Origin: an uncultured Bacteroidota bacterium
GTDB lineage: Bacteria; Bacteroidota; Bacteroidia; Chitinophagales; Chitinophagaceae
Direction of reading: 5' to 3'
Assembly: GCA_946479615.1 (NCBI GenBank)
Contig: CAMLGR010000060.1
Coordinates: 1 to 25,345, forward strand
DNA length: 25,345 nucleotides
Shown: piece after piece, positions 271-20,153 of the stretch
Numbering within the stretch: the stretch's first letter is position 1
How the letters are laid out: each line of letters begins with the position of its first letter
The notes under the pieces: generated by a model
What the model saw: the letters and a program-made list of their open reading frames with translations, nothing else
Database searches by the model: none
What the model was told of the DNA's origin: nothing
Made by a program: the position numbers and the translations under genes

Positions 271-278
271 CAAAAGTA
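271..278 (-). promoter_or_regulatory. Promoter -7 element of ppsA
   Basis: Reads TACTTTTG on the minus strand, an exact match to the Bacteroidota sigma -7 consensus TAnnTTTG, ending 43 bp before the ppsA ATG. No TTG/TTTG -33 element is seen at the usual spacing. Together with the operator box 52 bp upstream, this suggests an activator-dependent promoter (inference). Confidence 0.6.
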
Positions 279-297
279 GTCTGCGAACCCTGGAATA

Positions 298-334
298 AAT
301 ACTACGTTTATCTGTATTCTTAATACTATTTTTC
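298..334 (-). promoter_or_regulatory. Putative AraC-type operator upstream of ppsA
   Basis: On the plus strand, 322-334 reads AATACTATTTTTC. A second copy, AATACTACGTTT, lies at 298-309, 24 bp nearer the promoter; 10 of 13 positions match at that offset. The ATACTA core of the distal box begins exactly 52 bp from the -7 element (323 versus 271), the same as at ridA. It is a direct repeat in the style of AraC-family sites. Assignment to the regulator at 14057-14929 is inference. Confidence 0.55.
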
Positions 335-504
335 AATTAGATGAGAGGAGAAAAATGAGAGGGTGTAAAGGCGCAAAGAATTGCGAAAACAAAAGAAATC
401 CGGCATGATAATTCCTTCTTATGATGGTCTAAAATTCTATAGTCCGGCAAGGGTTTCACGCGGCGGGCGCGGCGGAGCAGCGGGTGTACTATGAATGAAA
501 TAGT
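335..504. other. Intergenic region with GC-rich island, no gene seen
   Basis: This stretch separates the stop of the FAD/Fe-S dehydrogenase gene from the ppsA operator. Positions 459-483 form a very GC-rich run built on GCGGCGGG, unlike the AT-rich spacers elsewhere in the window. Positions 366-389 contain AAAGGCGCAAAGAATTGCG, which resembles low-complexity CGCAAAG-type intergenic sequence common in bacterial genomes (recollection, not searched). I find no convincing hairpin plus T-tract terminator. The only minus-strand ATG reading frame is 26 codons (from 406) and has no support. Confidence 0.35.
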
Positions 505-3336
505 TCAGAGGCATTCATCGACGAGGTGGAGCAGGGATTCGTAGTTGGCGCCGACTGCATCGGACAGGGCCATCTCACAGGTTTTCGCAGATGAATAATA
601 GCCATTATAATTTTTTTGTTTCACTTCATCCGCTTCGGGCGCTGTAGCAGCGGCTGTCAGTTCAGGAAAGAGGAAACCGCGATCCCCGGCCATTCCACAA
701 CAACCCGCATGCAAAGGAACGTCTACCTGGCTGGCGCATTGCGATGCTACCGACATCATTTTTTTCTTCAGACCCATTTTCTCCAATGAACAGACCGGGT
801 GCAATGCAATGGAAGATTTTTTTTCTTTGATGTGTACCCGTGGAAGAATATAATCGTGGAGATAATCGATGCTATCGATAATGTTCATTTGATCGAAGCG
901 TGATTGATTCGCCGCATTGAGTACATGACGGCAATGTTGCAAGGTGTAGGTACAGGAACTCACATCGAGTATAACGGGGAATTTTCCCTGTTCGCTATCC
1001 TGCCAGAGTTGTTCGATGGTTTTATTGCACATGACAGTGAACGCCAATCCAAATCCTTTGGAAGAAAACAACTGGCCACAACAGGAGGAAGCAATCTGTT
1101 TGGGTATGATAACTCTCACACCCGCTTTCCCGGAGATATTTAAAAATGTTTCGTAGATATTTTTTTTATTCTTTACACCACCCATCATGCGGGAAATGCA
1201 GGACGGCATATATACGGCCGAATCCCGGAGGTTATTATTATCAACCGGCATACCGGATGATACCTTCAGAACAGATCGCCCCGGTGTCAGTAATTGATTA
1301 CTCCATAACGGAAATGCAGGAATGATTTTTTTAATCCCGCCGGTCAACCTGCGCATAGCAGATGCGCCGAATATTTTATTGACCAGGTTTCCTGTTTTCA
1401 GTGCAAACGAAACAAGTGAAACCGTGGTCCTGAAATTTTTCGCTACCATCACCGCTATCCGGTTGGCAAAAGAACTATGATTTTCTCTTCGCAACCGTTT
1501 GACAAGATCACCGGTATTGATATCGACAGGGCAAGCCGTTGCACAAAGTCCATCTACCGCACAGGTATCCAACCCATCGTATTGATATTCCTTTGCCAGT
1601 TCTTTGAAAGCTGCTTTTTCTCCCCGTGCTTTCAGCATCGCCATTTCACGCCGCACTACGATCCTGCGCCTGGGTGTTAAGGTGATATTACGGCTTGGGC
1701 AAACGTGTTCGCAATAGCCACATTCGATACATTTATCAACTTCCTGTTCTACTGCGGGCAACATTTTAAGATCGCAGAGATGCGCGTTTTGATTACTATT
1801 GATGATCACTCCGGGATTCAATAGGTTTTCAGGATCGATGGCTCGTTTGAGCGCCGTCATGATCCTGTACGCATCGCCTCCCCATTCCGTTTCTACAAAT
1901 GGCGCCATATTACGACCGGTACCATGCTCAGCTTTGAGTGTGCCATCATATTTTTTTACTACCAGGTCAACCACTTCACGAAGGAAAAGATCGTAACGGG
2001 TCACTTCTTCCGGTGTGTTGAAGGTCTGCGTGACTACAAAATGAATATTTCCATCTTTTGCATGACCGAATATGATCGCGTTGAGATATCCATGTTTTAC
2101 AAAGAGCGATTGCAGATCGGTTATCGCATCGCCTAATTGATGAACAGGGAAAGCAATGTCTTCCAGTATCACTGCTGTTCCACTGGCTCTTACTGCACCT
2201 ACTGCGGGAAACATTCCTTTACGCAGTTTCCATAAAAAGGCTTGCTCCGCACTATCCCTCGTGAACCGCACTTGCTCCAATAGCGATAATGTTTGCGCAA
2301 CCGGCAGGAACAGATCGATCTGTTCCTGCAAGGCCGCATCCGAATCTGCCTGGTATTCTACCAGCAATGCGGCTGCATAGGGTGGCAATGATTTAAGAAG
2401 ATCAGGTACGCCTTTTATATTTTCAATCGAACGAAGCGAAGCGCGGTCCATCAATTCCACGGCCTGCGCACCGGAAACAGACAATGGCACAATAGCGCGG
2501 CAGGCTTCGTACATATTTTCAAAATAAAGCAAGGCCGTGGCTTTGCAGGGATAATCAGCAATGGTATCCATTACGGCTTCTGCTATAAAAGCCAGTGTAC
2601 CCTCCGCGCCGATCAATAAATGCGCAAGTATATCCAGGGGGTGTTCATAATCGAGTAATGCATTCAATGAATAACCAACTGTATTCTTGGTCTCGTATTT
2701 TCTCCTGATGCGATCATACAGGGAAGGAATTGCCAGTAATTCTTTTCGTGCATTCGAGATCACCTCACAGATCTGCGGGCATTCCAGTTCAAATCTTGCA
2801 TAATCATTCTTTTGCTCTGTACTGAATTGTTTACCATCAGGAAGAATGAATCGGATATACCTGGTAGTATGATAAGAATTCAATTTCACCCCGCAGCACA
2901 TACCGCTGGAGTTATTGGAAAGTATACCGCCGATCATGGCGGCATCGATGCTCGAAGGATCGGGGCCGATCTTTCTCCGGTATCTTTTTAAATGTGCATT
3001 GACCATGCCACCGGTGATACCCGGCTGTAGTCTTACCTGCGTTGCATTTTGTTCGATCCCTATTTTATTCCAGTACTGGCTGAGATCAACCAGGATGCCA
3101 TCTGAAACAGATTGGCCGGATAAACTGGTACCACCTGTACGAAAGGTAAGCGGTATTTTATGTTGATGTGAGAATTGAAAAAGAGCAACGATCTCTTCTT
3201 CTTTTACCGGTTGAACAACTGCTTTTGGCCGTAAATAATAGAAGCCGGCGTCAGATGCATAGGAAACAAGATCGACCAATCTTGTTTTGATGCGTTCTTT
3301 GGGCAGAATATGTTCGAGTAGCTCGCCCGTTTTCAT
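505..3336 (-). CDS. FAD-linked oxidase fused to 4Fe-4S/CCG domains (D-lactate/2-hydroxyacid dehydrogenase type)
   Basis: A 943-residue fusion. Residues 40-260 form a PCMH-type FAD-binding domain with FRTGGTSLSGQS at 65-76. The FAD-oxidase C domain follows, with GHAKDGNIHF at 424-433, EHGTGRN at 470-476 and DPENLLNPG at 501-509. A dicluster ferredoxin domain follows, with Cys 536, 539, 542 and 546, then CAVDGLCATACP at 592-603. Two CCG heterodisulfide-reductase-type motifs sit at 752-754 and 879-881. This architecture is known from respiratory D-lactate dehydrogenases and YdiJ-type D-2-hydroxyglutarate dehydrogenases, which pass electrons from a 2-hydroxy acid to the quinone pool. It is the last gene of block D, 39 bp after the ceramidase-like gene. 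A role in oxidising D-lactate or another hydroxy acid made by the cluster is inference; the substrate cannot be read from sequence. All cofactor motifs look intact. Confidence 0.85.
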   Translation of the reverse strand: MKTGELLEHILPKERIKTRLVDLVSYASDAGFYYLRPKAVVQPVKEEEIVALFQFSHQHKIPLTFRTGGTSLSGQSVSDGILVDLSQYWNKIGIEQNATQVRLQPGITGGMVNAHLKRYRRKIGPDPSSIDAAMIGGILSNNSSGMCCGVKLNSYHTTRYIRFILPDGKQFSTEQKNDYARFELECPQICEVISNARKELLAIPSLYDRIRRKYETKNTVGYSLNALLDYEHPLDILAHLLIGAEGTLAFIAEAVMDTIADYPCKATALLYFENMYEACRAIVPLSVSGAQAVELMDRASLRSIENIKGVPDLLKSLPPYAAALLVEYQADSDAALQEQIDLFLPVAQTLSLLEQVRFTRDSAEQAFLWKLRKGMFPAVGAVRASGTAVILEDIAFPVHQLGDAITDLQSLFVKHGYLNAIIFGHAKDGNIHFVVTQTFNTPEEVTRYDLFLREVVDLVVKKYDGTLKAEHGTGRNMAPFVETEWGGDAYRIMTALKRAIDPENLLNPGVIINSNQNAHLCDLKMLPAVEQEVDKCIECGYCEHVCPSRNITLTPRRRIVVRREMAMLKARGEKAAFKELAKEYQYDGLDTCAVDGLCATACPVDINTGDLVKRLRRENHSSFANRIAVMVAKNFRTTVSLVSFALKTGNLVNKIFGASAMRRLTGGIKKIIPAFPLWSNQLLTPGRSVLKVSSGMPVDNNNLRDSAVYMPSCISRMMGGVKNKKNIYETFLNISGKAGVRVIIPKQIASSCCGQLFSSKGFGLAFTVMCNKTIEQLWQDSEQGKFPVILDVSSCTYTLQHCRHVLNAANQSRFDQMNIIDSIDYLHDYILPRVHIKEKKSSIALHPVCSLEKMGLKKKMMSVASQCASQVDVPLHAGCCGMAGDRGFLFPELTAAATAPEADEVKQKNYNGYYSSAKTCEMALSDAVGANYESLLHLVDECL

Positions 3337-3375
3337 GGATGGAAAATATGATTTTTATAGTAGCGTTACAAACTA

Positions 3376-4755
3376 TCAGCTGAGTTGTTTGACCAACTCC
3401 AGTAATTTTTCACGGATGCGTTTTTCTGCATCCATTTCCAGGAAACTGGTCCTGCATCTCCAGGTTTCATAGCCTCCTTTTTCAATTTCATGGGCCGGGG
3501 GAACATACCCTACAAAGTCATTGGCGAGGCATATCGTAAAGTAGTTATCGACAGGTTTGTTTTTTTTGAGCCATAATCCCGTTTCCGCAAAAAATTCCCC
3601 GCCCAATGCGCCGATGATACCTGAACCCAGTTTGATTGCCTGTACAGGAAAACCGATCTCACCAGGATATTCATACAGCAATACCTGTTCTCTTGCATAC
3701 AGTGTGCGCAATCCTTCGTCAGTGGGTTTGGGACCAACGAACGGATTAAAATTTTCAAAATCGGTTTCTTCTACAATTTTTTTCGAAACAACAGCTTCCG
3801 CGGCAGATGGCTTCCGTGTACCGACCCTGATCTCTTCATAGATCGCAGTCAATACAGGCAACTTCTCCCATTCAATAGTAGCAAGCCCGGCTATTACTTT
3901 ATCGGCCAGATCCCTTCCGATCAATTGGCTTTTAGCGTACTCTTCTTTGGGATAACGGTTGGATTGTACAAAATCCCAGATACTCGCTTCCCCGCTCGAA
4001 CCATTGCTTAATATCCCTACAAATTCCTTCCCGGCAGAAAGTTTGGTGGTAAGATGATCGGCAAAATATCCGAAATAGTCGGCGGTAATGGTTCCATTTT
4101 TGCAATCACCTACATAGTGCATGGAGTAATTGGCCAAAATACTGATCCAGTTTCCTTCGGTATCTTTTATTGCCACAAAATTCAATTCGGGATCAACCAC
4201 CGATGAGCGTTTGTCGATCTGGTGCTCATCACCAAATGGGTTTGTCTTAACTATATCCAGCTTACCTGTTACCGGGTTCCTCGCTTCATATCCCTGCTTC
4301 ATATAAAACCGCCGGCCAACCACATGCTCAGGAACATTTATTTTACCATAACCGATCTGTGCAGGCTGTACTCTTTTTTGTGCTTCGGCCACAGCAGTTG
4401 CAATCAGCGAAGGAAGTTTCAATGTATAAGGCAGATCGGCGGCGCCCATGAGCAGGTCGGCAACGGAACCGCCATAATGGGTATGCGTTGCAGAGACCAG
4501 GATATTCGTGGCCGGTATGCTTGTCTTTTCAGTGATCAGCAATTTTACCTGGTCGATAAATGATTTTGACATCGCGCAGATATCAACTACTACAAACGCT
4601 GCTGTTGTTTCCTGCGTTTGCAATACGATGGCTTTTGCATACAAACTGTCATGAATGCGTTGTGCATAGTGAATGATGAAATCACCATTCATCAATGTGC
4701 CCAGCGGAGGTGTGATATCGACCCGCGCAGCTCCTGCCTTAAAAAAAGATTTCAT
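3376..4755 (-). CDS. Neutral/alkaline ceramidase-like protein
   Basis: A 459-residue protein that starts with GAARVDITPPLG, the typical opening of the neutral/alkaline non-lysosomal ceramidase N-terminal domain. The zinc-binding-like SATHTHYGG lies at 88-96 (His91, His93), a third candidate ligand is His213 in NYSMHYVGD, and NGSSGEAS at 251-258 occupies the place of the catalytic-serine loop of true ceramidases. No signal peptide is visible, whereas bona fide bacterial ceramidases are exported and much longer. Proteins of this short type are common in Bacteroidota and Planctomycetota sugar-degradation clusters without a proven substrate. Here it sits between an M19 dipeptidase (48 bp upstream) and the FAD/Fe-S dehydrogenase. 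A hydrolase acting on an amide or ester of the cluster substrate is plausible; ceramide as substrate is unlikely (inference). Confidence 0.7.
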   Translation of the reverse strand: MKSFFKAGAARVDITPPLGTLMNGDFIIHYAQRIHDSLYAKAIVLQTQETTAAFVVVDICAMSKSFIDQVKLLITEKTSIPATNILVSATHTHYGGSVADLLMGAADLPYTLKLPSLIATAVAEAQKRVQPAQIGYGKINVPEHVVGRRFYMKQGYEARNPVTGKLDIVKTNPFGDEHQIDKRSSVVDPELNFVAIKDTEGNWISILANYSMHYVGDCKNGTITADYFGYFADHLTTKLSAGKEFVGILSNGSSGEASIWDFVQSNRYPKEEYAKSQLIGRDLADKVIAGLATIEWEKLPVLTAIYEEIRVGTRKPSAAEAVVSKKIVEETDFENFNPFVGPKPTDEGLRTLYAREQVLLYEYPGEIGFPVQAIKLGSGIIGALGGEFFAETGLWLKKNKPVDNYFTICLANDFVGYVPPAHEIEKGGYETWRCRTSFLEMDAEKRIREKLLELVKQLS

Positions 4756-4802
4756 TCCGGCTATTTATAAGTATGGCTCTTCAGAATTTACACCGAAAAT
4801 AA

Positions 4803-5888
4803 TTAACGCCATGCATGACGTAAAAATCTGAGCCAATTATTATGGAATATATTATCAATATCCGCTTCTTTGTATCCACGGCGGGAAAGGATCTCCTGGT
4901 ATTTCTGCAGATCGGCGATCGAATTAAGGTCCCAGGGCGATTGTTCCGTTCCGAAGTTACCATCCAGGTCAGTTCCAAAAGCGATATGCTCACTATTACC
5001 AGCGAGCTGGCAGATATGATCCCAGTGATCTACCAGGTTTTCTAATTTTATATTCAACTGCCAGGGATCCGATACCATATCGATAAACCGTGAATCCATG
5101 GCCCAGCAATCGAGCATGCCACCAATTACCGCCTTTCGTTTGATCAATGTTTTTATCTGCTCATCGGTTAGCTGCCGTTGCGTTGCAGCAATTTTCCGAA
5201 CGTTATGATGACTGGCCCAGACAGGTCCCTGGTATAAGTCCATAACTTGCTCAAAACCTTCATCGGTAAGATGTGTAACATCGAGGATCATGTTGAGTTT
5301 TCCCATTTCCTTCAACAACTCCACGCCTGCTGTCGTGAGACGGCCTTCGCGTTTGGTACCCGGTGCATAGCGACCCGGACCAAAATGCGAAAGACCGATC
5401 GCCCGCAATCCATATTCATAAGCACGTTCGATATAGGAAATACTTACAAATGAATCGGCTCCTTCTAGACTGAGAATATATCCAATGGGTTTTTTATTAT
5501 CATCGATGGAAGTATCGTTCCATAATTTCAGATGAGCTTCCAGTTGCTGCAGATTGACGATCTGCACCATTTCATCTATTGCTTCCATTTCCCGGTACCA
5601 GGCCAGTTGTGCCTGTGTCATGGCCCATGCCTGTGCCGGCGAGTTCCAGCCTGATACCGCACCCCCTCCACCGGCGGGTGCATATTTCGCCAGTTGCGTT
5701 GCTACGACCAGCCCGATCTTTCCTTTGCGCAATTCAGGTAAACAAACCGTTCCTCTTCCCCTGTCGTTCTTATCTTTCAAATGCATTTCACGTTCCCTGA
5801 TCTTATCCAACGGAAGTGTCAGGTCGCGGTTCCATTCAATCGCGTTCATGGCCAGATCCAGGTGCGCATCTATTATAAACTTATTCAT
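4803..5888 (-). CDS. M19 family (renal/membrane dipeptidase-like) metallohydrolase
   Basis: A 361-residue amidohydrolase-fold protein of peptidase family M19. The expected binuclear zinc ligands are visible: His9 and Asp11 (DAHLDL), Glu142 (LSLEGADS), His206 (DVTHLTDE) and His227 (ASHHNVR). Asp307 in FGTDLDG matches the catalytic aspartate. The family cleaves dipeptides, often with a D-residue at the C-terminus, and some members deacylate N-acyl-D-amino acids. There is no signal peptide, so it should be cytosolic. Its ATG overlaps the stop of the upstream 3HCDH-like gene by 4 bp (ATGA), a sign of translational coupling. Placement with an aminotransferase and RidA suggests release of an amino compound from an amide (inference). 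Confidence 0.85.
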   Translation of the reverse strand: MNKFIIDAHLDLAMNAIEWNRDLTLPLDKIREREMHLKDKNDRGRGTVCLPELRKGKIGLVVATQLAKYAPAGGGGAVSGWNSPAQAWAMTQAQLAWYREMEAIDEMVQIVNLQQLEAHLKLWNDTSIDDNKKPIGYILSLEGADSFVSISYIERAYEYGLRAIGLSHFGPGRYAPGTKREGRLTTAGVELLKEMGKLNMILDVTHLTDEGFEQVMDLYQGPVWASHHNVRKIAATQRQLTDEQIKTLIKRKAVIGGMLDCWAMDSRFIDMVSDPWQLNIKLENLVDHWDHICQLAGNSEHIAFGTDLDGNFGTEQSPWDLNSIADLQKYQEILSRRGYKEADIDNIFHNNWLRFLRHAWR

Positions 5889-6841
5889 ATATCGTTGTCT
5901 GAATTACCAAAAGGGTATTTCCTGATGATCTCCTGTATCTGGTAACTGTATTTACGGAATGTTTCATTCCATTTTTCCGTATCACCATCTTTATATTGAT
6001 AAAACCCCTTGTTATTTTCTATACCAAAATAACCCTGGCGCACGAGGTTGCTGAAAAATTCAGGTATCTGCCTGGCTTTGCATAATTCAGGATTGAGTTC
6101 TTTCATTACTTCTCCATAGCCGGCAGCTCCCATCAAATCCATGTACCGGAAATTACCGGCAAAAGAAAGATAATAGCCCGGATCATTGCGGCAGGCACGA
6201 TCGATATCTTCTATCGATGCATAACCATTCTCTACCAGGAAAAATGCTTCGCGCGCGATGGCGCTTAACATTTTGGAGCGGATACCCAGGTCACCGGCAA
6301 TAATGTAAGGATCTTTTTTCCAGTACTCCTTCGCATGCTGGCTGAAAGCAGCTACCAATGCCGCATCTGTTCTTTCATTGGCAATCAATTCAAGGAACAT
6401 GGTTGTATGTGCCGATTCGGACCAGTTCGCACCTAATATCCGGCCGGGATAAAGAGCATGTTCCTGGATCGATTCAAGCGGGATGCTTTCTGTACTGATG
6501 GCGATGACAGCCTCTTTCGAAAGCAGTTTCTCCAGCCGGCTGATTATGATTTCTTTTTCATTGAGATCTTCATTCGTGATAGCGATCCCCATACCATAAT
6601 CTCCATCGGCTTTGCCCGTATTGCCATCAATTATATCCAGGTCCTTTTGCTGCAATTTTTTATAGGCCGGTAATTTCAGATCGGCAAGATGGATATTGAT
6701 CCCATTCAATGCCTGTTCCGGATCGTTTGTTAGTAAGGTTATTTTATGACCTGCCTGCAAAAGACACACCGTTATACTGAATACCAATTTTCCATTGCCG
6801 GTTACCAGAACCGGCTTTTTCCTGAACCCAACATTTTCCAT
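5885..6841 (-). CDS. Divergent 3-hydroxyacyl-CoA-dehydrogenase-like protein, catalytic residues altered
   Basis: A 318-residue paralogue of the protein at 8265-9260, with the same layout: N-terminal Rossmann domain, then a helical C-terminal domain (GIRSKMLSAIAREAFFLVENG at 186-206). Key positions are changed. The dinucleotide loop reads GNGKLV (15-20) where GxGxxG is expected. The catalytic histidine position is Asn139 in LGANWSES, against Gly-Val-His-Trp in the paralogue. The asparagine of the FITNRLM segment aligns with Lys190. Glu151 of the His-Glu dyad position remains. The reading frame is intact and tightly embedded: 34 bp after the aminotransferase, 4 bp overlap with the dipeptidase. 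It may be a regulatory or heterodimer partner, or an enzyme with different chemistry (inference). Family assignment is firm; activity is doubtful. Confidence 0.75.
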   Translation of the reverse strand: MENVGFRKKPVLVTGNGKLVFSITVCLLQAGHKITLLTNDPEQALNGINIHLADLKLPAYKKLQQKDLDIIDGNTGKADGDYGMGIAITNEDLNEKEIIISRLEKLLSKEAVIAISTESIPLESIQEHALYPGRILGANWSESAHTTMFLELIANERTDAALVAAFSQHAKEYWKKDPYIIAGDLGIRSKMLSAIAREAFFLVENGYASIEDIDRACRNDPGYYLSFAGNFRYMDLMGAAGYGEVMKELNPELCKARQIPEFFSNLVRQGYFGIENNKGFYQYKDGDTEKWNETFRKYSYQIQEIIRKYPFGNSDNDI

Positions 6842-6875
6842 CTTACTATTTTCTGGTGGTTTTAGTTTATCTCAT

Positions 6876-8183: not shown

Positions 8184-8264
8184 AATTAAACGGGAAATTT
8201 TATCGATATGGCTCTGCCTGCAGGACAACAGGATGTCTTGCCAGTCAACATTGTTATTGGCGCA

Positions 8265-9260: not shown

Positions 9261-9268
9261 GGGCCTGT

Positions 9269-9730: not shown

Positions 9731-9738
9731 CAAAAGTA
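9731..9738 (-). promoter_or_regulatory. Promoter -7 element of the ridA-to-dehydrogenase block
   Basis: TACTTTTG on the minus strand, an exact TAnnTTTG match and identical to the ppsA element. It lies 75 bp before the RidA ATG. No -33 TTG is visible at the expected spacing. The shared operator box starts 52 bp upstream. Confidence 0.6.
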
Positions 9739-9763
9739 ATTGTCACACTCTTTTTCATCTATT

Positions 9764-9794: not shown

Positions 9795-9820
9795 ATCACT
9801 CAGTATGTTGCGTGGCAGGC

Positions 9821-10987: not shown

Positions 10988-11011
10988 GAATCGATGAATT
11001 AAAAAGGATGC

Positions 11012-11467: not shown

Positions 11468-11507
11468 GATAATTTTATTTGATGATATATATTTTATAAA
11501 TGAGCGA

Positions 11508-12503: not shown

Positions 12504-12509
12504 ATAGTA

Positions 12510-13718
12510 TTAAGTGCGTTCACCGGATTTAGGTATGAATTTATATTTTTCGATCAGTTCATCCGGCAGGTGTACACCAAGTCCGGGCGCTGATGGGATA
12601 CCTACTTTACCATTTTTAAGTACCAGTTTATCGATCATCAGGTCATTCTGTACACGATGCGATGCGACCACATGCTCTAACCAGTCGACCGAATGCGAAG
12701 CGGCAGACAGGTGCCAGGAAGCAGCCAGTGATGGGCCGACAGATGCACCGGTATGTATCGCCGTACTGATATTGTATGCTTCTGCATGATGGATGATGCG
12801 GACTGTTTCCTGCAGACCGCCAACAAAACCAATATCGGGCTGGATCATATGCACAGCGCCACCGGCAATCAATGCATGAAACTGGTCAAGACCGCAAAGA
12901 CTTTCACCACCGGCAACCGGTATGGGAGAACGGGCCGCGAGTTCGCGATAGCCGTCGATATTCGTATACGCTAATGGTTCTTCATAAAAACGCAGGCGAT
13001 AAGGAGCTAATGCTTCCGCAGTAGCGATCGCTTCTGTAACAGGAATCGGGTTAGGAACACCACCCTGGTGGCCATCGATCGCAAAATCGATCTCTGCCCC
13101 GAATTCTTTACGCAATCTTTCAAATGCCTGCACGAGTGTTTCTATTCTTTTTGAGAAAGGAAGCGGATGTGGCTGCAAGCGTCCCTGTGATTCGCCTGCC
13201 TGCTGTGCTTTCACCTGGTAAAACCCGGTTGAAAATTTAGTGGATGTATACCCCATCTTTACATAGTTCTCTACTTTGCGGACCATATCATCGAAGGGTA
13301 ATACAGAGGGGCCGCCGGATGCATACACCGGTATCTCTTCGCGAACCTTGCCCCCGAGTAATTGATACACGGGAAGACCCAGCGCTTTTCCTTTAAGATC
13401 CCATAAGGCAAGTTCAAGACCGCTGATCACACTGCGGCCGGCACCGGAACGGGCCCACCATACAGAATCATCCATCATGGCCCGTGTAAGCGCTGTCGTA
13501 TCCATAGGATCTTTGCCAACGAGTACAGGCTTGAAATATTCAACGATGGAAGGAACTGCATCGGGTGCAAAATAGCCCCAGGTTGTTTCGCCGAGACCAT
13601 CGAGACCGCTATCTGTCTGGATGCGAATGATCGCTGCAGAGTGAAGCATGGTAGGAAACGAAGGATCATTATCCCATTTGAACGTTAACAGGTGAGTAAC
13701 GAGGTTTGTAATCTTCAT
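12510..13718 (-). CDS. Mandelate racemase/muconate-lactonizing enzyme family sugar-acid dehydratase
   Basis: A 402-residue enolase-superfamily protein with an N-terminal capping domain and a barrel. Metal ligands and catalytic residues are visible: Lys161 (TKFSTGF), Asp215 and His217 (AIDGHQ), Glu247 (YEEPL), Glu272 (GGESL), Asp295 (QPDIG) and His322 (AIHTG). The Asp-x-His pair on the third strand plus His on the seventh strand resembles galactonate/mannonate-type acid-sugar dehydratases, which turn aldonic acids into 2-keto-3-deoxy acids. The exact sugar cannot be assigned. It heads block C, 38 bp after a TACCTTTG -7 element with the shared operator. This is the probable dehydration step that supplies the aldolase and FAH hydrolase (inference). 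Confidence 0.85.
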   Translation of the reverse strand: MKITNLVTHLLTFKWDNDPSFPTMLHSAAIIRIQTDSGLDGLGETTWGYFAPDAVPSIVEYFKPVLVGKDPMDTTALTRAMMDDSVWWARSGAGRSVISGLELALWDLKGKALGLPVYQLLGGKVREEIPVYASGGPSVLPFDDMVRKVENYVKMGYTSTKFSTGFYQVKAQQAGESQGRLQPHPLPFSKRIETLVQAFERLRKEFGAEIDFAIDGHQGGVPNPIPVTEAIATAEALAPYRLRFYEEPLAYTNIDGYRELAARSPIPVAGGESLCGLDQFHALIAGGAVHMIQPDIGFVGGLQETVRIIHHAEAYNISTAIHTGASVGPSLAASWHLSAASHSVDWLEHVVASHRVQNDLMIDKLVLKNGKVGIPSAPGLGVHLPDELIEKYKFIPKSGERT

Positions 13719-13756
13719 GAGTTAGTAATGATAATTTATTTTGATCCGCTTTGTCT

Positions 13757-13764
13757 CAAAGGTA
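13757..13764 (-). promoter_or_regulatory. Promoter -7 element of block C (dehydratase operon)
   Basis: TACCTTTG on the minus strand, a full TAnnTTTG match, 38 bp before the dehydratase ATG. A TTG lies at 13783-13781 but only 16 bp upstream, closer than the usual spacing, so the -33 is weak or absent. Confidence 0.55.
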
Positions 13765-13790
13765 ATTTCTGACTACTGTACAATTCTTCA

Positions 13791-13821
13791 ACTATCGTTT
13801 GGATTTGCAATACTATTTTTC
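13791..13821 (-). promoter_or_regulatory. Putative AraC-type operator upstream of block C
   Basis: Plus-strand distal box AATACTATTTTTC at 13809-13821, identical to the ppsA box; its ATACTA core begins 53 bp from the -7 element. The second half-site ACTATCGTTT at 13791-13800 matches ACTATTTTTC (13812-13821) at 7 of 10 positions with a 21 bp offset. Confidence 0.55.
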
Positions 13822-13834
13822 AGCCGGGCAATAA

Positions 13835-13937: not shown

Positions 13938-13976
13938 CAACTGCCAACCGGGAACTGTTCTTCCTTATATATTTAT

Positions 13977-13989
13977 GATACTATTTTTC
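13977..13989. promoter_or_regulatory. Operator-like box upstream of the AraC regulator gene (distal)
   Basis: GATACTATTTTTC on the plus strand, 12 of 13 bases identical to the boxes before ppsA and block C, 67 bp before the regulator ATG. No TAnnTTTG element lies 52 bp away on the minus strand, so it does not seem to serve block C. Autoregulation of the regulator is the simplest reading (inference). It is inverted, relative to the araC gene, compared with the boxes at the other promoters. Confidence 0.45.
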
Positions 13990-14044
13990 ATAAAATCAGG
14001 CCCGCCGATACGCATATCCTCTTATTTATTTAGATTACGCCTAT

Positions 14045-14056: not shown

Positions 14057-14929
14057 ATGAAGGCGATTGAAATGCGGTTACCGCGCGGTTACGATAATTC
14101 GTTCGTGGTTTTCCGGGAAAAAGGGAAGTTCTTTCCGGCTCCCTGGCATTACCATCCCGAATATGAACTGGTGCTTGTCACTAAAAGTACGGGCCGCCGG
14201 ATGGTCGGCGATCATATCGGTTATTTTGAAGATGAGGACCTTGTTTTCCTGGGACCCGGTCTGCCTCATGTATGGGTAAACGATACGGAGTATAACGATC
14301 AGTCAGACCTGGAAGCAGATGCCATCGTTATTCACTTTGAAGGCTCTTTCCTGGGAGAGGATTTCATCAATATCCCCGAGATGGAAAACTTCCGGAAGTT
14401 TCTCAAATTATCCAGCCGGGGTATGGCGATCAAAGGTGTCACCCGCAAAAAGATAAATGAGCTGATGAAAAAAATGATGCAGGCCGATTATGGCATGCTC
14501 CGTTTATCATTGCTGTTGAAAATATTTGATGTGCTCTCCGATTATCCTGAATACGAATCACTGGCCAGCCCGGGTTACCTGCTCCAGACACGCGCCGGGA
14601 ATGATGCGGATCGTTTCAGCAAAGTGACGGAATATATCATGCGGAATTTTGACCGCGATATTGCACTCCCGGAGATCGCTGGTGTGGCGAATATGGCGAT
14701 GACGACTTTCTGCAATTTCTTTAAGAAATACTATGGAGTTACGTTCGTGGAATACCTGCATGCAGTGAGGATCGGTCATGCATGTAAATTATTAAGCGAA
14801 AAGAACCAGGATACGGTGATCGATATTGCTTATGAATGCGGATTCAATAACCTCGCCCATTTCAACCGGCAGTTCAAACGGTTGAAGAAGATGACACCAA
14901 CTGAATATAGAAAGATCGTAAATATCTGA
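14057..14929 (+). CDS. AraC-family transcriptional regulator with N-terminal cupin domain
   Basis: A 290-residue regulator, the only plus-strand gene. Residues about 20-95 form a cupin-type sensor (HYHPEYELVLV at 31-41, GDHIGYF, LGPGLPHVW at 65-73). Residues about 186-290 form the double helix-turn-helix AraC domain: the first HTH around LPEIAGVANMAMTTFCNFFKK, the second around VIDIAYECGFNNLAHFNRQFKR, ending with the PTEYRK signature. It most likely senses a sugar or sugar acid and activates the surrounding blocks through the ATACTATTTTTC boxes (inference). Two box-like sequences lie in its own leader. Its stop is separated by one base from the convergent stop of the bdhA-like gene. I see no clean TAnnTTTG promoter in front of it; TATTTATT around 14023 is the nearest candidate. 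Confidence 0.92.
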   Translation: MKAIEMRLPRGYDNSFVVFREKGKFFPAPWHYHPEYELVLVTKSTGRRMVGDHIGYFEDEDLVFLGPGLPHVWVNDTEYNDQSDLEADAIVIHFEGSFLGEDFINIPEMENFRKFLKLSSRGMAIKGVTRKKINELMKKMMQADYGMLRLSLLLKIFDVLSDYPEYESLASPGYLLQTRAGNDADRFSKVTEYIMRNFDRDIALPEIAGVANMAMTTFCNFFKKYYGVTFVEYLHAVRIGHACKLLSEKNQDTVIDIAYECGFNNLAHFNRQFKRLKKMTPTEYRKIVNI

Positions 14930-14930
14930 T

Positions 14931-15704
14931 CTATTGAGAGGTGTAGCCGCCATCGATCACAATGGCCTGTCCGGTAACACCGGCAGCAGCATCACCCGCG
15001 AGGAATAAGGCATACGCCGCTATCTCGGCCACAGACAATAATCTTTTTTGCGGGACAAGCGGGTAGATGACTTCCTCCAGTACTTTATCAACCGATATAT
15101 TTCTTGTTGCCGCCAGACCGGCCAACTGGTTCCGCACCAGTTCCGTTTCTACATACCCGGGGCAAAGTGCATTGACCGTTATATTATGTGTGGCTCCTTC
15201 GAGTGCTGCTACTTTGGTAAGACCGATCACACCATGCTTGGCACTGTTGTATGCGGCTTTGCCGGCAAATCCTACCAACCCATTGATAGAAGCCATATTG
15301 ATGATCCTTCCAAAACGTTGCCGCTTCATGATAGGAAATACATTTTTTATCGCGATGAAAGGAGCAGTGAGCATGATCCGGAGCATCAATTCAAATTTAT
15401 CGACCGGGAAATCTTCTATCGTTGACACATGCTGAATACCCGCATTGTTGATCAGCACATCGATACGTTGCCATTTTTCATGCGCCGATTGCAGGGCCGA
15501 ACGTATATCCGTTTCTTTGGTAACATCACAACGTATACCAATTACTTCTGCACCAGCGCTACTCAATTTTTCAACAGCACTGTTCAATTGCGTTTCATTG
15601 ATATCACTGATGACTACCCTGGCACCTGTTTTTGCAAATGCCGAAGCCATTTCAAACCCGATACCTGCCGCAGCGCCTGTGATAAAAACAACCTTGCCTG
15701 TCAT
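14931..15704 (-). CDS. SDR dehydrogenase, 3-hydroxybutyrate dehydrogenase-like
   Basis: A 257-residue classical short-chain dehydrogenase. TGAAAGIG is at 9-16, Asp34 after beta-2 (VISDIN) indicates NAD preference, NNAG at 86-89, and the catalytic set is Ser139, Tyr152 and Lys156. LCPGYVETELVRNQL and the C-terminal VIDGGYTSQ resemble D-3-hydroxybutyrate dehydrogenase. In this setting it may oxidise a sugar acid or other 3-hydroxy acid instead. It is the last gene of block B, 30 bp after the preceding SDR, and ends tail to tail with the regulator with one base between stop codons. No terminator fits in that gap. Confidence 0.85.
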   Translation of the reverse strand: MTGKVVFITGAAAGIGFEMASAFAKTGARVVISDINETQLNSAVEKLSSAGAEVIGIRCDVTKETDIRSALQSAHEKWQRIDVLINNAGIQHVSTIEDFPVDKFELMLRIMLTAPFIAIKNVFPIMKRQRFGRIINMASINGLVGFAGKAAYNSAKHGVIGLTKVAALEGATHNITVNALCPGYVETELVRNQLAGLAATRNISVDKVLEEVIYPLVPQKRLLSVAEIAAYALFLAGDAAAGVTGQAIVIDGGYTSQ

Positions 15705-15734
15705 GATATGTCGTTATGAATAATCAATACATTT

Positions 15735-16526
15735 TTACCAGCTTGTCCATCCGCCATCGACCGGTAAATTTTGCCCGGTTATATAGGAAGCTGCATCGGA
15801 GAGAAGAAATGCAACCGCTCCTGCTATTTCTTCAGAGCGACCGATACGGCCCATTGGTGATTTGCTGGAAAGCCGCTCAATGAAACCAGGATTATTTTTT
15901 TGTACATCGGGATTGGGAAAAGGTCCCGGCGACACACAATTGCACCGCACATTATTTCTTCCCCAATGAACAGCGAGATAACGTGCCATCTGGATCAATG
16001 CTGCTTTGGTAACACCATACTCGATCGGGTTCTTGATCATCGGCTCCACATAAGGATCGGGATAAGGCGATACCATTCCATACATACTTGAAAACAATAC
16101 CAGGCTGCCCCTCCCCGCTTTTGCCATTTGCATACCTACTTCACGCACGAGCAGGAACGGCGTGGTCAATGCGCCATGATTCACCCGGTCGAAGTCTGCT
16201 TCTGTGAGATCTTCGAGCTTTGTACCCGCATAAGCCGCGGTAAGATTTACATACCCATGCGGTATACCACGTTGTTTGATCTGTTGTTCTACAAACGCTT
16301 TTATAGCGCTGCCATCATTTGCATCGAGAGTAAAAGGAGTAACCTTGTCTTCCAGTTTTTCTGTTTGTACAAAACTGGCCGCTTTATCCTGCAGGTCCAC
16401 ACAAAGCACGGTAGCGCCTGCTGCTGCCAGCAATTTCACCGTAGCCTGCCCGAGATATCCTGCGCCACCGAATACCCAGATATCTTTTCCTTCGAGCGAT
16501 AATATAGCAGCTGTATTCTTATTCAT
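15735..16526 (-). CDS. SDR family oxidoreductase (PtmA-like subgroup)
   Basis: A 263-residue short-chain dehydrogenase. The cofactor loop is GGAGYLG at 20-26, Asp44 (CVDL) points to NAD, the active site is Ser147 (FSSMYG), Tyr170 and Lys174 (YGVTKAAL), and it ends LPVDGGWTSW. A loop of about 20 residues between the Ser and Tyr (with YPDPYVEPM) and the SPGPFPN stretch are typical of SDRs annotated as flagellin-modification or sialic-acid-type dehydrogenases. It is a close tandem paralogue of the next upstream gene, 18 bp away, and unlike that gene keeps the full catalytic set. The two may act as a pair on the pathway sugar (inference). Confidence 0.85.
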   Translation of the reverse strand: MNKNTAAILSLEGKDIWVFGGAGYLGQATVKLLAAAGATVLCVDLQDKAASFVQTEKLEDKVTPFTLDANDGSAIKAFVEQQIKQRGIPHGYVNLTAAYAGTKLEDLTEADFDRVNHGALTTPFLLVREVGMQMAKAGRGSLVLFSSMYGMVSPYPDPYVEPMIKNPIEYGVTKAALIQMARYLAVHWGRNNVRCNCVSPGPFPNPDVQKNNPGFIERLSSKSPMGRIGRSEEIAGAVAFLLSDAASYITGQNLPVDGGWTSW

Positions 16527-16544
16527 AAAAAATCAGTTAGCTGA

Positions 16545-17324
16545 TCAGGCGTTCAATCCGCCATCCATTAAAATATTTTCTCCATTTATATATGCCCCTG
16601 CTTCCGAGGCGAGCAATACGATCAATCCTTTGATATCATCTTTGTTCGCCATCCGGCCCAGCGGTACTTTTTTCGTATAGTTTTCCAGGAAACGCGCTGG
16701 TTGGTTATTGAATAATCCACCCGGACTGATACAATTAACACGCACATTTTTTCCTGCCAGCATTTTTGCCAGGTAACGGGTAAGGTTTAACAACCCTGCA
16801 TTGTGAAAGAAGTAATCCGGTGGCAGGCTTTTGTTCATTTCCGTGCCTTCATAGTTGGAAAGATCGGGACCAAACATGCCCATCATCGAACCGATATTAA
16901 TGATACTGCCGCCTTTACTTTTCGTGATGAGGTCAGCCATCTCACGCAATATATCCATCATGCCCGTAGCGTTGACACGCATGGATTCTGCAAATTGTTC
17001 GATCGGCGCTTCATAGCTGCCCATGGGCCTGGACACAGCATTATTTACAAATCCATGCAATGCACCGAATTTATTTTCGATCTGTTTGCGAAGCTGTAAT
17101 ACAGACGAATGATCTCCCTGGTCTACCTGCATTGCATATACATCAAATCCTTTGCTGCGGAAATCAGCTGCGACCTGTTCTCCCTGTTCAACATTGCGTG
17201 AAGCAATGATGACGGTAGCATCCGCTTCCACCAAACCTTCCACGATACATTTTCCATAATTGCCCGCTCCACCTGTAACAAGGATGATCTTATTTTTCAG
17301 GCTGAACAGCTCTTTAACATTCAT
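16545..17324 (-). CDS. SDR family protein with catalytic Lys replaced by Asn
   Basis: A 259-residue SDR, tandem paralogue of 15735-16526. The Rossmann loop TGGAGNYG is at 17-24, NNAV at 94-97, and Ser146 (IGSMMG) is present. After the YEGTEMNKS loop the active-site motif reads Tyr171-Phe-Phe-His-Asn175, so the YxxxK lysine is Asn. The codon is AAT at 16800-16802, one base from a Lys codon. The rest of the fold (SPGGLFNNQPARF, ILMDGGLNA) is well kept, and the frame is open. Either the protein is a non-catalytic partner of its paralogue or it uses altered chemistry (inference). It follows the Gfo/Idh/MocA gene by 9 bp. Confidence 0.8.
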   Translation of the reverse strand: MNVKELFSLKNKIILVTGGAGNYGKCIVEGLVEADATVIIASRNVEQGEQVAADFRSKGFDVYAMQVDQGDHSSVLQLRKQIENKFGALHGFVNNAVSRPMGSYEAPIEQFAESMRVNATGMMDILREMADLITKSKGGSIINIGSMMGMFGPDLSNYEGTEMNKSLPPDYFFHNAGLLNLTRYLAKMLAGKNVRVNCISPGGLFNNQPARFLENYTKKVPLGRMANKDDIKGLIVLLASEAGAYINGENILMDGGLNA

Positions 17325-17333
17325 AGACGTTGT

Positions 17334-18251
17334 TTATAAATAAATTATTTTGCCGCCGGCTTTCAGGCTTTCATCAGCCGCGATCAATGTACGGATGATC
17401 GCTTCTGTTTTATCAAATGAGAACCGTGGCTTGCCTTCCTGTACCGACCGGATAAATTCAATGATATTATCCCGGAACATGGAATATGAATTTTTGATCT
17501 CCACTAACCGCCATCCTTTTTGCCCGAAGATGGAGAACTGCAATACAGGAGTAATATCCATGTACATCTGCAGCATTACGGTTGTCCCGTTCTTAAATTT
17601 CAATTGCACAATGTCTTTCCCGGCTTCGCCGATATGTTTAATCCAATCGGGCTGCGGATCACCCAGCAAACTGAAAATACCTTCGAGCAGGTGCACCCCG
17701 TATTTGGGCCAGTCTTTTTTCCCGACTGCCGTAATGAGTTCGATTTGTCCCAGCGATGCAAGTTCCGTTTTTGCTGTCCTGCACTCGGCCGAATAACGCA
17801 TCGAGGAACAGGACATGATGAATTTACCTTTCGCCTGTTCTTCCTTATAATAATCAAGATCGGCCGTTGTCATTGCCAGCGGCTTATCGATAAAAATGGG
17901 AATACCGGCATTGATAAAAGGGCGTGACATCTCCACATGAAATTCAGGATCGTCGCGGGAAAGAATGACTGCATCTACTTCGGCGATCATATCCGTGATA
18001 TCGTTACAGATATGTTCGATACCTGCAGCACCGGCAATGCTTTGAGATATTTTCCGGTCCTGCGTCCATACATGCGTGACTTTTACAGAATTGATACCAA
18101 GTGTATCTTTATTTGCCTGAAGGTAAGCGGCCACACCAGGATAACCCACTCTTGTAATTTCATCGCCATCGAATACGCCGTTGATGATAGCCGACCATGA
18201 ATAAGGATGGGCATTCCCCTCACTCATTCCTATGATACCAATTTTTGTCAT
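17334..18251 (-). CDS. Gfo/Idh/MocA family oxidoreductase
   Basis: A 305-residue NAD(P)-dependent oxidoreductase. The N-terminal Rossmann domain has the unusual loop GMSEGNAHPYSWSAI (8-22) instead of plain GxGxxG. The family EKP motif appears as Asp122-Lys-Pro (IDKPLA). The C-terminal domain has HLLEGIFSLLG and a beta-sheet substrate half. The GNAHPYSW loop marks a subgroup seen in sugar and cyclitol clusters. The family oxidises or reduces carbohydrate carbons, frequently C3. It is third in block B, 16 bp after the aldo/keto reductase and 9 bp before the SDR pair. Substrate unknown. Confidence 0.82.
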   Translation of the reverse strand: MTKIGIIGMSEGNAHPYSWSAIINGVFDGDEITRVGYPGVAAYLQANKDTLGINSVKVTHVWTQDRKISQSIAGAAGIEHICNDITDMIAEVDAVILSRDDPEFHVEMSRPFINAGIPIFIDKPLAMTTADLDYYKEEQAKGKFIMSCSSMRYSAECRTAKTELASLGQIELITAVGKKDWPKYGVHLLEGIFSLLGDPQPDWIKHIGEAGKDIVQLKFKNGTTVMLQMYMDITPVLQFSIFGQKGWRLVEIKNSYSMFRDNIIEFIRSVQEGKPRFSFDKTEAIIRTLIAADESLKAGGKIIYL

Positions 18252-18267
18252 GTTGTCTTTTTACTAA

Positions 18268-19224
18268 TTATACCAGCCATCCCTTTTTACTCCATTCTGC
18301 CAGGTTGAGAAATTCCGGTTCGGGGTAAGCGAGTTTTTTAAGTTGTGTGACCATCTGCCTGTCGAGATAACCGCCTTCCACCGCTTTCAATGAATCGGAT
18401 AAATATTCCAACCTATCCATACCGATAAGTACTGACGATATTTCGGGAAATGCTAATGCGAATTTGATGGCCAGCGCCGGCAGATCGGGATAGGAATAAT
18501 TCAAAAAGGAATGATATTGTTTGATATGTGCTTCTACATTCTTCAATGCCGGGTGCAGATCATTCGCCCTATTGCTAAGCAATCCTTTTAATAACACCGA
18601 CCTGATCACGATGCCGATACCTTTTTCACTGGCAGCAGCAAATAAAGCGCCCTGTTCCTGGTTCAATAAATTGAAGGGCAATTGTATCACATCCCAGCAA
18701 CCGCATTCGATCGCTTTTTTTGTTTCTTCCGCAGTATAGGTAGAAACGCCTGTGGCGCGGATAATACCCGATCGTTTTAAACGCGCAAATATTTTCGCGA
18801 TGTCAGCGTTGCCGAGTATCTCCATATCTGCCTGGTGCAGCATGAATACATCGAGGTATTCGGTTTGCAGTTCGGTCAGACTTTGCTGCCAGGAAGAATC
18901 GATGATCTTTTTTAATCCCGCATACCCGGGTAATTGTCCATTGCCATCGCGCAAATGCAGGCACTTGGTAGCGAGCACTACTTTGCTTCTGCGATCGCGG
19001 AAGGCTTTACCCATGATCGATTCACTTTTACCATATAGCCTTGCCGTATCGAAAAAATTAATACCCGACTGTAAAGAGGCATGAAGCAAGCGGATCGATT
19101 CCGTTTCGGTGATCATGTGATCGGCGCTATGAATACCGATGCCATAAGGCATCCCGATCTCTACCCCTCCGAATGCCAGTTCTGACACACTGATCCCTGT
19201 ACTTCCCAATTGTCTTTTATTCAT
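18268..19224 (-). CDS. Aldo/keto reductase
   Basis: A 318-residue TIM-barrel reductase with the full catalytic tetrad: Asp59 (FFDTARLYG), Tyr64, Lys87 (LATKCLH) and His130 (VFMLHQAD). The start MNKRQLGSTGISVSELAFGG is typical of the L-fucose/D-threo-aldose-dehydrogenase and general AKR branch. It could oxidise the sugar at C1 to a lactone, or reduce the aldehyde (lactaldehyde or glyceraldehyde) freed by the adjacent HpaI-type aldolase (inference). It lies 11 bp downstream of the aldolase in block B. No signal peptide. Confidence 0.87.
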   Translation of the reverse strand: MNKRQLGSTGISVSELAFGGVEIGMPYGIGIHSADHMITETESIRLLHASLQSGINFFDTARLYGKSESIMGKAFRDRRSKVVLATKCLHLRDGNGQLPGYAGLKKIIDSSWQQSLTELQTEYLDVFMLHQADMEILGNADIAKIFARLKRSGIIRATGVSTYTAEETKKAIECGCWDVIQLPFNLLNQEQGALFAAASEKGIGIVIRSVLLKGLLSNRANDLHPALKNVEAHIKQYHSFLNYSYPDLPALAIKFALAFPEISSVLIGMDRLEYLSDSLKAVEGGYLDRQMVTQLKKLAYPEPEFLNLAEWSKKGWLV

Positions 19225-19235
19225 AAAAGCAAACG

Positions 19236-20042
19236 CTAATTTTCGAGATAGGAACTCTTTGATGTATTAGCAGGTGATTTTTTAAACGCATTTGAAAGAT
19301 CCTGGAAATAATTTTTCACTCCTACCACATCTGCACCGATACTGACAAACTGGTAACCCATCGCAAATAATTCATCGATATTACCTGGTCCGCCCACAGT
19401 ACCTGCAAATTTTCCATATTTCTTCGCGATAGCCGCCACCTGTTTCCTTGTTTCAGCTATCTGCGGATGATTCCATTCGCCGGGCGCACCGATGCTCTGG
19501 CTGAAATCACCGGGACCAAAGAATAACATATCAAATCCATCGAGTGCCGCAATAGCTTCGATATCTTTTAAAGGTTCTTTATCCTCGATCTGTAATATCA
19601 CAAACCGCTCTTCATTGGCTTGCTTCAGGTAATCAGTAAAATCGAGCGCAGTATACGCGCCATCTGAATTACCTCCATCGATAGGACGCATACCAACCGG
19701 ATGAAAACGTGTCATCGAAACAACATTCTTTGCATCTTCCAAACTCATCACATGCGGAACCATGATGCCGGTAGCATCGAGTTCGAGCGGACGTATATAA
19801 TCGCTGTAGCTGCCGCGGGCCACCCGCACCATCAGATCTGTATCGTGTGCTTTGGTCGACCATACACAGGAAGCCACCATCGACCAGTCGAGTGCGATAT
19901 GTTCCTGGTCGATCCATACGCAATCAAAACCTGTAATAGCCGCTATTTCCGGGATACGCGGATCAGACAGATTGATCTTTATACAGCTGACATTTTCACC
20001 GGCTCTTAATTTCCTGAGTACCCTGCTTGGCCGCATTTTCAT
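19236..20042 (-). CDS. HpcH/HpaI-family class II aldolase (2-keto-3-deoxy sugar acid type)
   Basis: A 268-residue aldolase. Motifs fit HpaI and YfaU/GarL-type enzymes: WIDQEHIALDW (43-53, base His48), LMVRVARG with Arg73, ATGIMVPHV (90-98), metal ligands Glu153 (QIEDKE) and Asp179 (FGPGDFSQSIG), and VSIGADVVG. The family cleaves 2-keto-3-deoxy acids to pyruvate and an aldehyde with a divalent metal. It is the first gene of block B, 48 bp after a -7 element with the shared operator. With the enolase-superfamily dehydratase it forms a complete non-phosphorylative aldonate cleavage route (inference). Confidence 0.88.
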   Translation of the reverse strand: MKMRPSRVLRKLRAGENVSCIKINLSDPRIPEIAAITGFDCVWIDQEHIALDWSMVASCVWSTKAHDTDLMVRVARGSYSDYIRPLELDATGIMVPHVMSLEDAKNVVSMTRFHPVGMRPIDGGNSDGAYTALDFTDYLKQANEERFVILQIEDKEPLKDIEAIAALDGFDMLFFGPGDFSQSIGAPGEWNHPQIAETRKQVAAIAKKYGKFAGTVGGPGNIDELFAMGYQFVSIGADVVGVKNYFQDLSNAFKKSPANTSKSSYLEN

Positions 20043-20090
20043 ATTGATATATTTAAGTGGTCAGTATGGATTGTTATACTGTATGACGTT

Positions 20091-20098
20091 TAAAGGTA
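20091..20098 (-). promoter_or_regulatory. Promoter -7 element of block B (aldolase operon)
   Basis: TACCTTTA on the minus strand, one mismatch (final G to A) from TAnnTTTG, 48 bp before the aldolase ATG. On its own it would be weak evidence. It is called because the shared box begins exactly 52 bp upstream, as at ppsA and ridA. Confidence 0.45.
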
Positions 20099-20123
20099 AC
20101 TTTATCGCCCGTCAGGCACCCCT

Positions 20124-20153
20124 GTTTTTGTTCATATTTCTAATACTTTTTTC
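20124..20153 (-). promoter_or_regulatory. Putative AraC-type operator upstream of block B
   Basis: Plus-strand box AATACTTTTTTC at 20142-20153, one base shorter than AATACTATTTTTC. It starts at the same distance (20143 versus 20091, 52 bp) from the -7 element as at the other promoters. The second half-site GTTTTTGTTCA at 20124-20134 matches the ridA half-site ACTTTCGTTCA at 8 of 11 positions, in the same relative place. Confidence 0.5.

Follow-up and report, generated by a model that had tools for sequence, protein, structure and literature searches.

Which protein reads the sequence box that stands in front of four gene units on a contig of an uncultured Chitinophagaceae bacterium (Bacteroidota)? 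The stretch analysed (GenBank assembly GCA_946479615.1, contig CAMLGR010000060.1, positions 1 to 25,345; called the window below) carries araC, the gene of an AraC-family regulator, on the plus strand at 14057-14929, and all other genes considered lie on the minus strand. The minus-strand units of interest are four: ppsA, the ridA operon, the dehydratase operon and the aldolase operon. A first-pass annotation had reported a box ahead of each of them, at a nearly constant distance from a -7 promoter element, and had proposed the nearby AraC protein as the regulator. We put at about 87% the probability that the four sites are operators of this protein, which would control a local regulon by class II activation and would also regulate its own gene.

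The four boxes and their -7 elements lay where they had been reported. The box, given as AATACTATTTTT, is exact at positions 322, 9782 and 13809, but has two mismatches at 20142. Likewise, the -7 element is an exact TAnnTTTG before ppsA, the ridA operon and the dehydratase operon, but reads TACCTTTA before the aldolase operon. The spacings of 52, 52, 53 and 52 bp, counted on the plus strand, become 51, 51, 52 and 51 bp when counted between 5′ ends on the minus strand; the distances are the same. On that strand the operator reads TGAAAAATAGTATCAnnAATnnAAATAAAAGTAGCAG. It consists of two direct half-sites whose starts are 21 bp apart, and the -7 element begins 51 or 52 bp past the start of the first half-site. 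The reported box corresponds to one half of this operator; the second half-site and a fifth copy of the operator, upstream of araC, had been missed. There are nine TAnnTTTG strings in the window, three of which precede ppsA, the ridA operon and the dehydratase operon, each with a box upstream.

A layout defined as the box AAAAATAGTATT with up to two mismatches and TAnnTTT[GA] at 50-53 bp occurred four times in the window. In 1000 dinucleotide shuffles it occurred 0.012 times on average and never more than once. The box used in this test was derived from the observed sites, therefore an independent test with a model built from relatives carries more weight. This sequence-only model (R1) was made from 40 sites of relatives, with the window excluded. 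The 40 were taken from the relatives' 75 sites with an exact -7 element by dropping those that were cut short or were more than 72% identical to one already taken. Run on the window with filters off, R1 recovered the four reported sites and the fifth, all on the minus strand (Table 1); the next best match scored 8.3 bits (E 0.07).

The relatives' loci were collected with the window AraC and 16 homologues as queries. The 79 loci fetched, from the best 80 of 97 candidates, belong to named species and to metagenome-assembled genomes. Pairs of ATAGTAT and TAnnTTTG at 11-149 bp numbered 66 in these loci, 36 of them at 51 bp and 11 at 52 bp, the next commonest distances having three. This tally (47 pairs at 51 or 52 bp) is the unbiased count of the spacing, the seeds of the motif having been preselected for 51 or 52 bp. 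The relatives' motif, TGAAAAATAGTATCAnnAATnnAAATAAAAGTAGCAGA, was derived from 59 distinct seed sites and has the half-sites ATAGTATCA at positions 0-8 and AAAGTAGCA at 21-29, i.e. two direct half-sites about 21 bp apart, the form of an AraC-type operator. Scanning the 79 loci and the window with the motif revealed 122 operator-like sites above 16 bits in 64 of the 80 sequences, and none in the reversed sequences. A TAnnTTTG string lies within 48-55 bp at 78 of the 122 sites: 64 at 51 bp, 14 at 52 bp and none at other distances.

The pattern ATAGTAYNANNA with a -7 element at 51 or 52 bp was also searched in the ten whole genomes (66.8 Mb in all) from which ten of the loci come. It had 18 matches, distributed over nine genomes, and the reversed pattern had none. 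With a control spacing of 46 or 47 bp, 5 bp off, one match was found with the forward and one with the reversed pattern. These counts bear out the rarity of the box at random genome positions, on which the original proposal depended. Fifteen of the 18 matches were on the contig of araC, within about 50 kb, thus the regulon is mainly local. The remaining matches, one each in G003, G006 and G010, were on contigs different from that of araC; in G006 a weaker AraC homologue lies about 32 kb away from the match.

The AraC protein has the double helix-turn-helix characteristic of the C-terminal part of the AraC/XylS family (HTH_18, E 1.1e-23, above the cut-off). Its N-terminal half, where members of the family would have a ligand-binding (cupin) domain, had no Pfam match and was covered by none of 15 matches to solved structures. 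The best 120 of the 1532 homologues listed, the protein itself excluded, are 63-82% identical to it, and sources of homologues include Chitinophaga, Mucilaginibacter, Flavisolibacter and Rhabdobacter, which fits the Bacteroidota origin of the window.

Several observations connect this protein with the operator. In 43 of the 80 sequences a minus-strand operator was found 46-82 bp upstream of the araC start. Eighteen of these 43 operators are followed at 51 bp by an exact -7 element that would serve a divergent gene; the other 25, including that of the window, lack one; a near variant of the -7 element occurs at 50-52 bp in at least four of the 25 (L010, L032, L033 and L069). The core of the fifth operator of the window starts 73 bp from the araC ATG. 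It is reversed relative to araC, lacks a -7 element of its own and combines a strong half-site 1 with a weak half-site 2; in the relatives the operator has the same place and orientation. The conservation of this operator makes autoregulation likely, its sign being conjectural. Furthermore, the operator was present, in some cases as a weak site, at 18 of the 27 loci where the fetched stretch lacked RidA, the first 3HCDH-type dehydrogenase, the aminotransferase and HpcH at 40% identity, and at 45 of the 52 other loci.

Operator and regulator also occurred together in larger genome samples, which were searched for the operator with stricter filters that miss weak sites. In a sample of 296 genomes of the phylum, operators with E<1e-6 were found in G001 (the centre), G043 and G172, and the AraC subfamily (E<=1e-90) in the same three genomes only. 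Among 147 Chitinophagaceae genomes, operators with E<1e-6 were found in eight, all belonging to the nine genomes with an AraC match of at least 490 bits; both cut-offs, 1e-6 and 490 bits, were picked after the lists had been seen. Fisher's test gave P values of 2e-12 at operator E<1e-6 and 9e-11 with the reported matches at E<=1e-4 also counted, values that are optimistic, for the samples overlap and the genomes are related. When the three genomes that had contributed to R1 were left out, all five operator genomes fell within six AraC genomes (P 1.2e-8). The 21-bp direct half-sites, the operator upstream of araC, its presence at loci lacking the catabolic genes and the genome co-occurrence all support the earlier proposal that the nearby AraC protein is the regulator.

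The genes that follow the operator were examined next to araC in the 79 loci, orthologues being counted at 40% identity or more. From the ridA operon, RidA was found in 26 loci, the first 3HCDH in 37, the aminotransferase in 38, the second 3HCDH in 28, the M19 dipeptidase in 30 and the ceramidase-like gene in 30; the FAD (flavin adenine dinucleotide) oxidase was found in none of the 79. From the aldolase operon, HpcH was found in 33 loci, the aldo/keto reductase in 30, the GFO/IDH/MocA gene in 26 and the three short-chain dehydrogenases/reductases (SDRs) in 28, 15 and 7. An operator lies within 350 bp upstream of the RidA orthologue in 23 of 26 cases; in 21 of these, TAnnTTTG occurs without mismatch at 51 or 52 bp, L065 and L069 being the two that lack it. 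The expected conservation of the box at orthologous loci was thus confirmed for ridA. Within the same distance an operator precedes the first 3HCDH in 11 of 37 cases and the aminotransferase (0/37), the second 3HCDH (0/28) and the M19 dipeptidase (0/30) in none. None of the orthologues of the aldo/keto reductase, the GFO/IDH/MocA gene and the SDRs has an operator within 350 bp upstream. For the ridA unit the support from orthologues is good, for the aldolase unit it is thin, and ppsA and the dehydratase operon have none; the evidence for these two is the model score.

The longest frame starting within 500 bp was determined for 76 sites. It belonged to the group of the ridA operon 3HCDH at 32 sites, to a SusC-type receptor group at 13, to a nucleoside symporter-type transporter group at 9, to the HpcH group at 5 and to a histidinol-dehydrogenase-type group at 3; for the SusC, symporter and histidinol-dehydrogenase groups, the profile search covered a single member each. 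In L006 and L037 the operator precedes, as judged by eye, an apparent transporter gene ahead of HpcH, and it seems that another gene opens the HpcH unit in some relatives. Among 79 Chitinophaga genomes searched for the operator, four had it, with two to four copies each. In the stretches fetched from these four, the ridA operon, an operator and araC are neighbours in three genomes, whereas about 25 kb separates them in the remaining one.

Other arrangements were observed in particular lineages. In seven Larkinella loci (L027, L028, L030, L031, L036, L039 and L073) araC stands between two operators, both with -7 elements: the upstream one faces the divergent ridA operon, and the other lies just past araC, before a SusC-type receptor gene (SusC and SusD were profile-checked in L027 only). 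In L070, L071 and L074-L079 (Daejeonella, Pedobacter and similar) the operator is between araC and a divergent gene for a nucleoside-symporter-type transporter, and the fetched stretch has no ridA operon; the transporter and the next gene, of the GFO/IDH/MocA type, were profile-checked in L079 only. These loci apparently share the regulator family and the motif and have a different regulon. In the Dyadobacter loci L049, L056 and L061, near position 4950 or 6515, an operator is ahead of a histidinol-dehydrogenase-type gene (profile-checked in L061), which may add a step to the same pathway; a gene for a GntR/aminotransferase-type regulator is nearby in L061. In G172 the operators are on contigs other than that of araC, two of them divergent and about 220 bp apart (C11:13760-13826, minus strand, and 14050-14116, plus strand). 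This may reflect a scattered regulon or a broken assembly.

The position of the second half-site suggests how a bound protein could act. According to the available text of PMC7366714, a -33 element, TTTG, has been placed in Bacteroides fragilis, and none was identified in Flavobacterium. In the window, the -7 elements have the TAnnTTTG form ascribed to Sigma-ABfr promoters at three of the four sites, the fourth being TACCTTTA. The companion TTTG was absent from the -33 register of all 78 operator-bearing sites (75 of relatives and three of the window), and TTG was found there in three, in agreement with the weak or missing -33 elements noted in the first-pass annotation. At 1025 other TAnnTTTG strings of the same loci, most of them presumably no promoters, the same register contained TTTG 45 times and TTG 141 times. 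The end of half-site 2 lies near +30, which leaves about 20 bp to the -7 element, whose start is at +51 or +52. By geometry, then, the proximal half-site overlaps the -35/-33 region upstream of the -7 element, as in class II activation. With half-site 2 in the place of the -33 element and TTTG missing there, we propose that the bound protein replaces the -33 contact.

In the mechanism that we propose, the AraC protein would bind all five predicted operators. The half-sites ATAGTATCA and AAAGTAGCA, two helical turns (21 bp) apart, would place its two DNA-binding domains on one face of the DNA. AraC on the promoter-proximal half-site would then supply the contact with RNA polymerase that the absent -33 element cannot provide, and the fifth operator, in reverse orientation close to the araC start, would serve autoregulation. 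The targets would be a catabolic pathway with RidA, an aminotransferase, dehydrogenases, dehydratases and a pyruvate-type aldolase, and in addition ppsA, whose product would presumably return the pyruvate of the pathway to gluconeogenesis. The putative pathway contains RidA, a class III aminotransferase, 3HCDH and HpcH aldolase; some relatives add PhyH, SusCD, a nucleoside symporter-type transporter or a histidinol-dehydrogenase-type gene. This gene content pointed to no named pathway.

Table 1. Predicted operators, -7 elements and genes of the window (half-site and -7 distances are counted on the minus strand; R1 matches are on the minus strand; gene functions are putative)
Feature	Positions	Strand	R1 match	Remarks
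ppsA 5′ part (phosphoenolpyruvate synthase)	1..227	-		Open frame, ATG 227-225; truncated by window end; name from the first-pass annotation
ppsA -7 element TACTTTTG	271..278	-		51 bp from core start
ppsA operator	299..335	-	269-335, 36.2 bits, E 1.4e-10	Core of half-site 1 (ATAGTA) starts at 329; half-site 2 (AAACGTAGTA) offset by about 21 bp
ridA operon	505..9655	-		RidA, 3HCDH-type dehydrogenase, class III aminotransferase, second 3HCDH, M19 dipeptidase, ceramidase-like, FAD oxidase/iron-sulfur protein (Pfam)
ridA operon -7 element TACTTTTG	9731..9738	-		51 bp
ridA operon operator	9759..9795	-	9728-9795, 45.3 bits, E 2e-13	Closest match to family motif
Dehydratase operon	9821..13718	-		MR_MLE dehydratase, 2-hydroxyacid dehydrogenase, YhcH/YjgK, UxuA-like (Pfam)
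Dehydratase operon -7 element TACCTTTG	13757..13764	-		52 bp
Dehydratase operon operator	13786..13822	-	13755-13822, 34.1 bits, E 6.6e-10	
Fifth operator, upstream of araC	13954..13990	-	13965-13990, model positions 2-27 of 70, 19.0 bits, E 3.4e-5	
araC, AraC-family regulator	14057..14929	+		290 aa; Pfam HTH_18 at residues 208-286
Aldolase operon	14931..20042	-		HpcH/HpaI aldolase, aldo/keto reductase, GFO/IDH/MocA, three SDRs (Pfam)
Aldolase operon -7-like element TACCTTTA	20091..20098	-		51 bp
Aldolase operon operator	20119..20155	-	20092-20152, 19.5 bits, E 2.3e-5	Weakest of the four

Apart from ppsA, gene names in Table 1 stand for profile matches. Gene order and strand suggest that the ridA genes form one operon, and the same holds for the aldolase genes. 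A further run of minus-strand genes of sugar-acid type occupies 20172-24899 (GDSL, TIM-barrel, GFO/IDH/MocA, FAA hydrolase, SDR). Its FAA hydrolase scored 368 bits to 2,4-didehydro-3-deoxy-L-rhamnonate hydrolase, under the cut-off of 500. Model R1 found no operator ahead of this run within the window.

Some observations weigh against assigning all these sites to AraC. The site of the aldolase operon has a low score and the deviating -7 element TACCTTTA; in the relatives a site lies directly upstream of HpcH in two of 26 cases (seven more HpcH genes have no upstream sequence in the fetched stretch). The ceramidase-like gene lies inside its operon in the window; among its 30 orthologues, five are preceded by a site at no more than 350 bp. 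Each of the four dehydratase-operon genes was found beside araC in 0/79 loci at 40% identity or more, and ppsA had no match in the eight stretches searched (L113-L120). Sixteen of the 79 loci had no site above the threshold in the fetched stretch; R1 finds four matches in these, at 15.7-20.4 bits. Six more genomes of the phylum sample had one marginal operator match each (E 2.9e-4 to 9.2e-4) and no AraC subfamily. In the Chitinophagaceae sample, G349 and G358 each had a single weak match at E<=1e-4 and likewise no AraC subfamily; conversely, no operator match was found there in G418, with an AraC match of 510 bits, or in G360, with a weaker homologue of 336 bits. The optimistic P values of the co-occurrence tests belong here as well.

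Other explanations of the same sites were considered. The box is AT-rich, and an AT-rich intergenic stretch could recur by chance or through a recent duplication. We regard this as practically negligible: it is refuted by the dinucleotide shuffles, the reversed controls and the model built from relatives only, and by the flanks of the four sites, which on comparison by eye are unlike each other, as the first-pass annotation had argued in disfavouring a recent duplication. A more serious alternative is that the conserved operator is read by another protein, AraC being only linked to the operator. That protein could be a second regulator; it could also be an alternative sigma factor to which box and -7 element together form an extended promoter. 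The operator is indeed part of a promoter with rigid spacing, as with a sigma factor; it is commoner at loci with the catabolic genes (45/52) than at those without (18/27), and AraC binding is a prediction from sequence comparison. Yet the operator persists at those 18 loci and co-occurs with the AraC subfamily, its 21-bp direct repeat is the form reported for AraC-family sites in Bacteroides, and 25 of the 43 araC-upstream operators lack an exact TAnnTTTG at 51 or 52 bp, even if some have the near variant described above. Taken together, these findings make another reader quite unlikely.

The sign of the regulation is a separate question. AraC-type proteins can activate and repress, and the sequence does not reveal which of the two applies, hence the operator-bound protein might repress its targets. 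We consider this unlikely: the operator stops about 20 bp upstream of the -7 element and leaves it and the start uncovered, and the lack of TTTG in the -33 register (0/78) is as expected for promoters needing help. Binding by AraC is the reading that we prefer, and we infer that it activates its targets.

If the proposed regulon is real, a catabolic gene set that recurs in Cyclobacterium, Larkinella, Dyadobacter and Chitinophaga gains a regulon defined by sequence, with its operator, its regulator and its promoter geometry. The sites also offer a clean set of natural data on how activators meet the unusual Bacteroidota promoter. A wider generalization, which is tentative and may well not hold, is that in Bacteroidota, in whose promoters a -33 element frequently goes undetected, a proximal AraC-type half-site is the standard, register-locked substitute for the -33 element, with 30-31 bp between the half-site start and the -7 element. 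The regulator described here would be the first clear example across several families, and would control an undescribed RidA/aminotransferase/aldolase pathway. If this were true, the -7 element would allow genome-wide prediction of activator sites for the many AraC and hybrid two-component system (HTCS) regulators of the phylum.

In class II activation by AraC and RhaS of Escherichia coli, the half-sites are direct repeats and the proximal one is at the -35 region. The operators of the window resemble this arrangement in their two direct half-sites, the proximal one in the -35 place, but they belong to promoters of Bacteroidota type, with TAnnTTTG at -7, in which the proximal half-site stands where the -33 element would be. 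RhaR, the AraC-family regulator of the rhamnose regulon of Bacteroides, has a direct-repeat motif with 21-bp periodicity, and most regulons of that study are local, according to the available text (Rodionova et al. 2013, PMC3870299). Both are AraC-family regulators of Bacteroidota with a 21-bp direct repeat, but they control different genes: RhaR governs the rhamnose catabolic operon, whereas our sites are followed by genes for RidA, 3HCDH, aminotransferase, dehydratases and HpcH aldolase. For the HTCS regulators of Bacteroides thetaiotaomicron, Ravcheev et al. (2013, PMC3878776) predicted direct-repeat motifs, the sites being separated by 21 bp on average, and described a regulon with a SusC/SusD-like system. 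The AraC-type DNA-binding domain, the repeats of about 21 bp and, in some relatives, the SusC-type genes after the operator are shared with our system. HTCS proteins fuse a sensor, a histidine kinase and a receiver to the AraC-type domain; the window protein, in contrast, is a one-component regulator in whose 290 residues only HTH_18/HTH_AraC was found, with no kinase or receiver domain. No paper on this regulator, motif or pathway was found in the open-licence literature of PubMed Central (PMC). In kind, the system belongs with the direct repeats already known from AraC, RhaR and HTCS regulators, and the regulon itself may be new as far as that literature shows.

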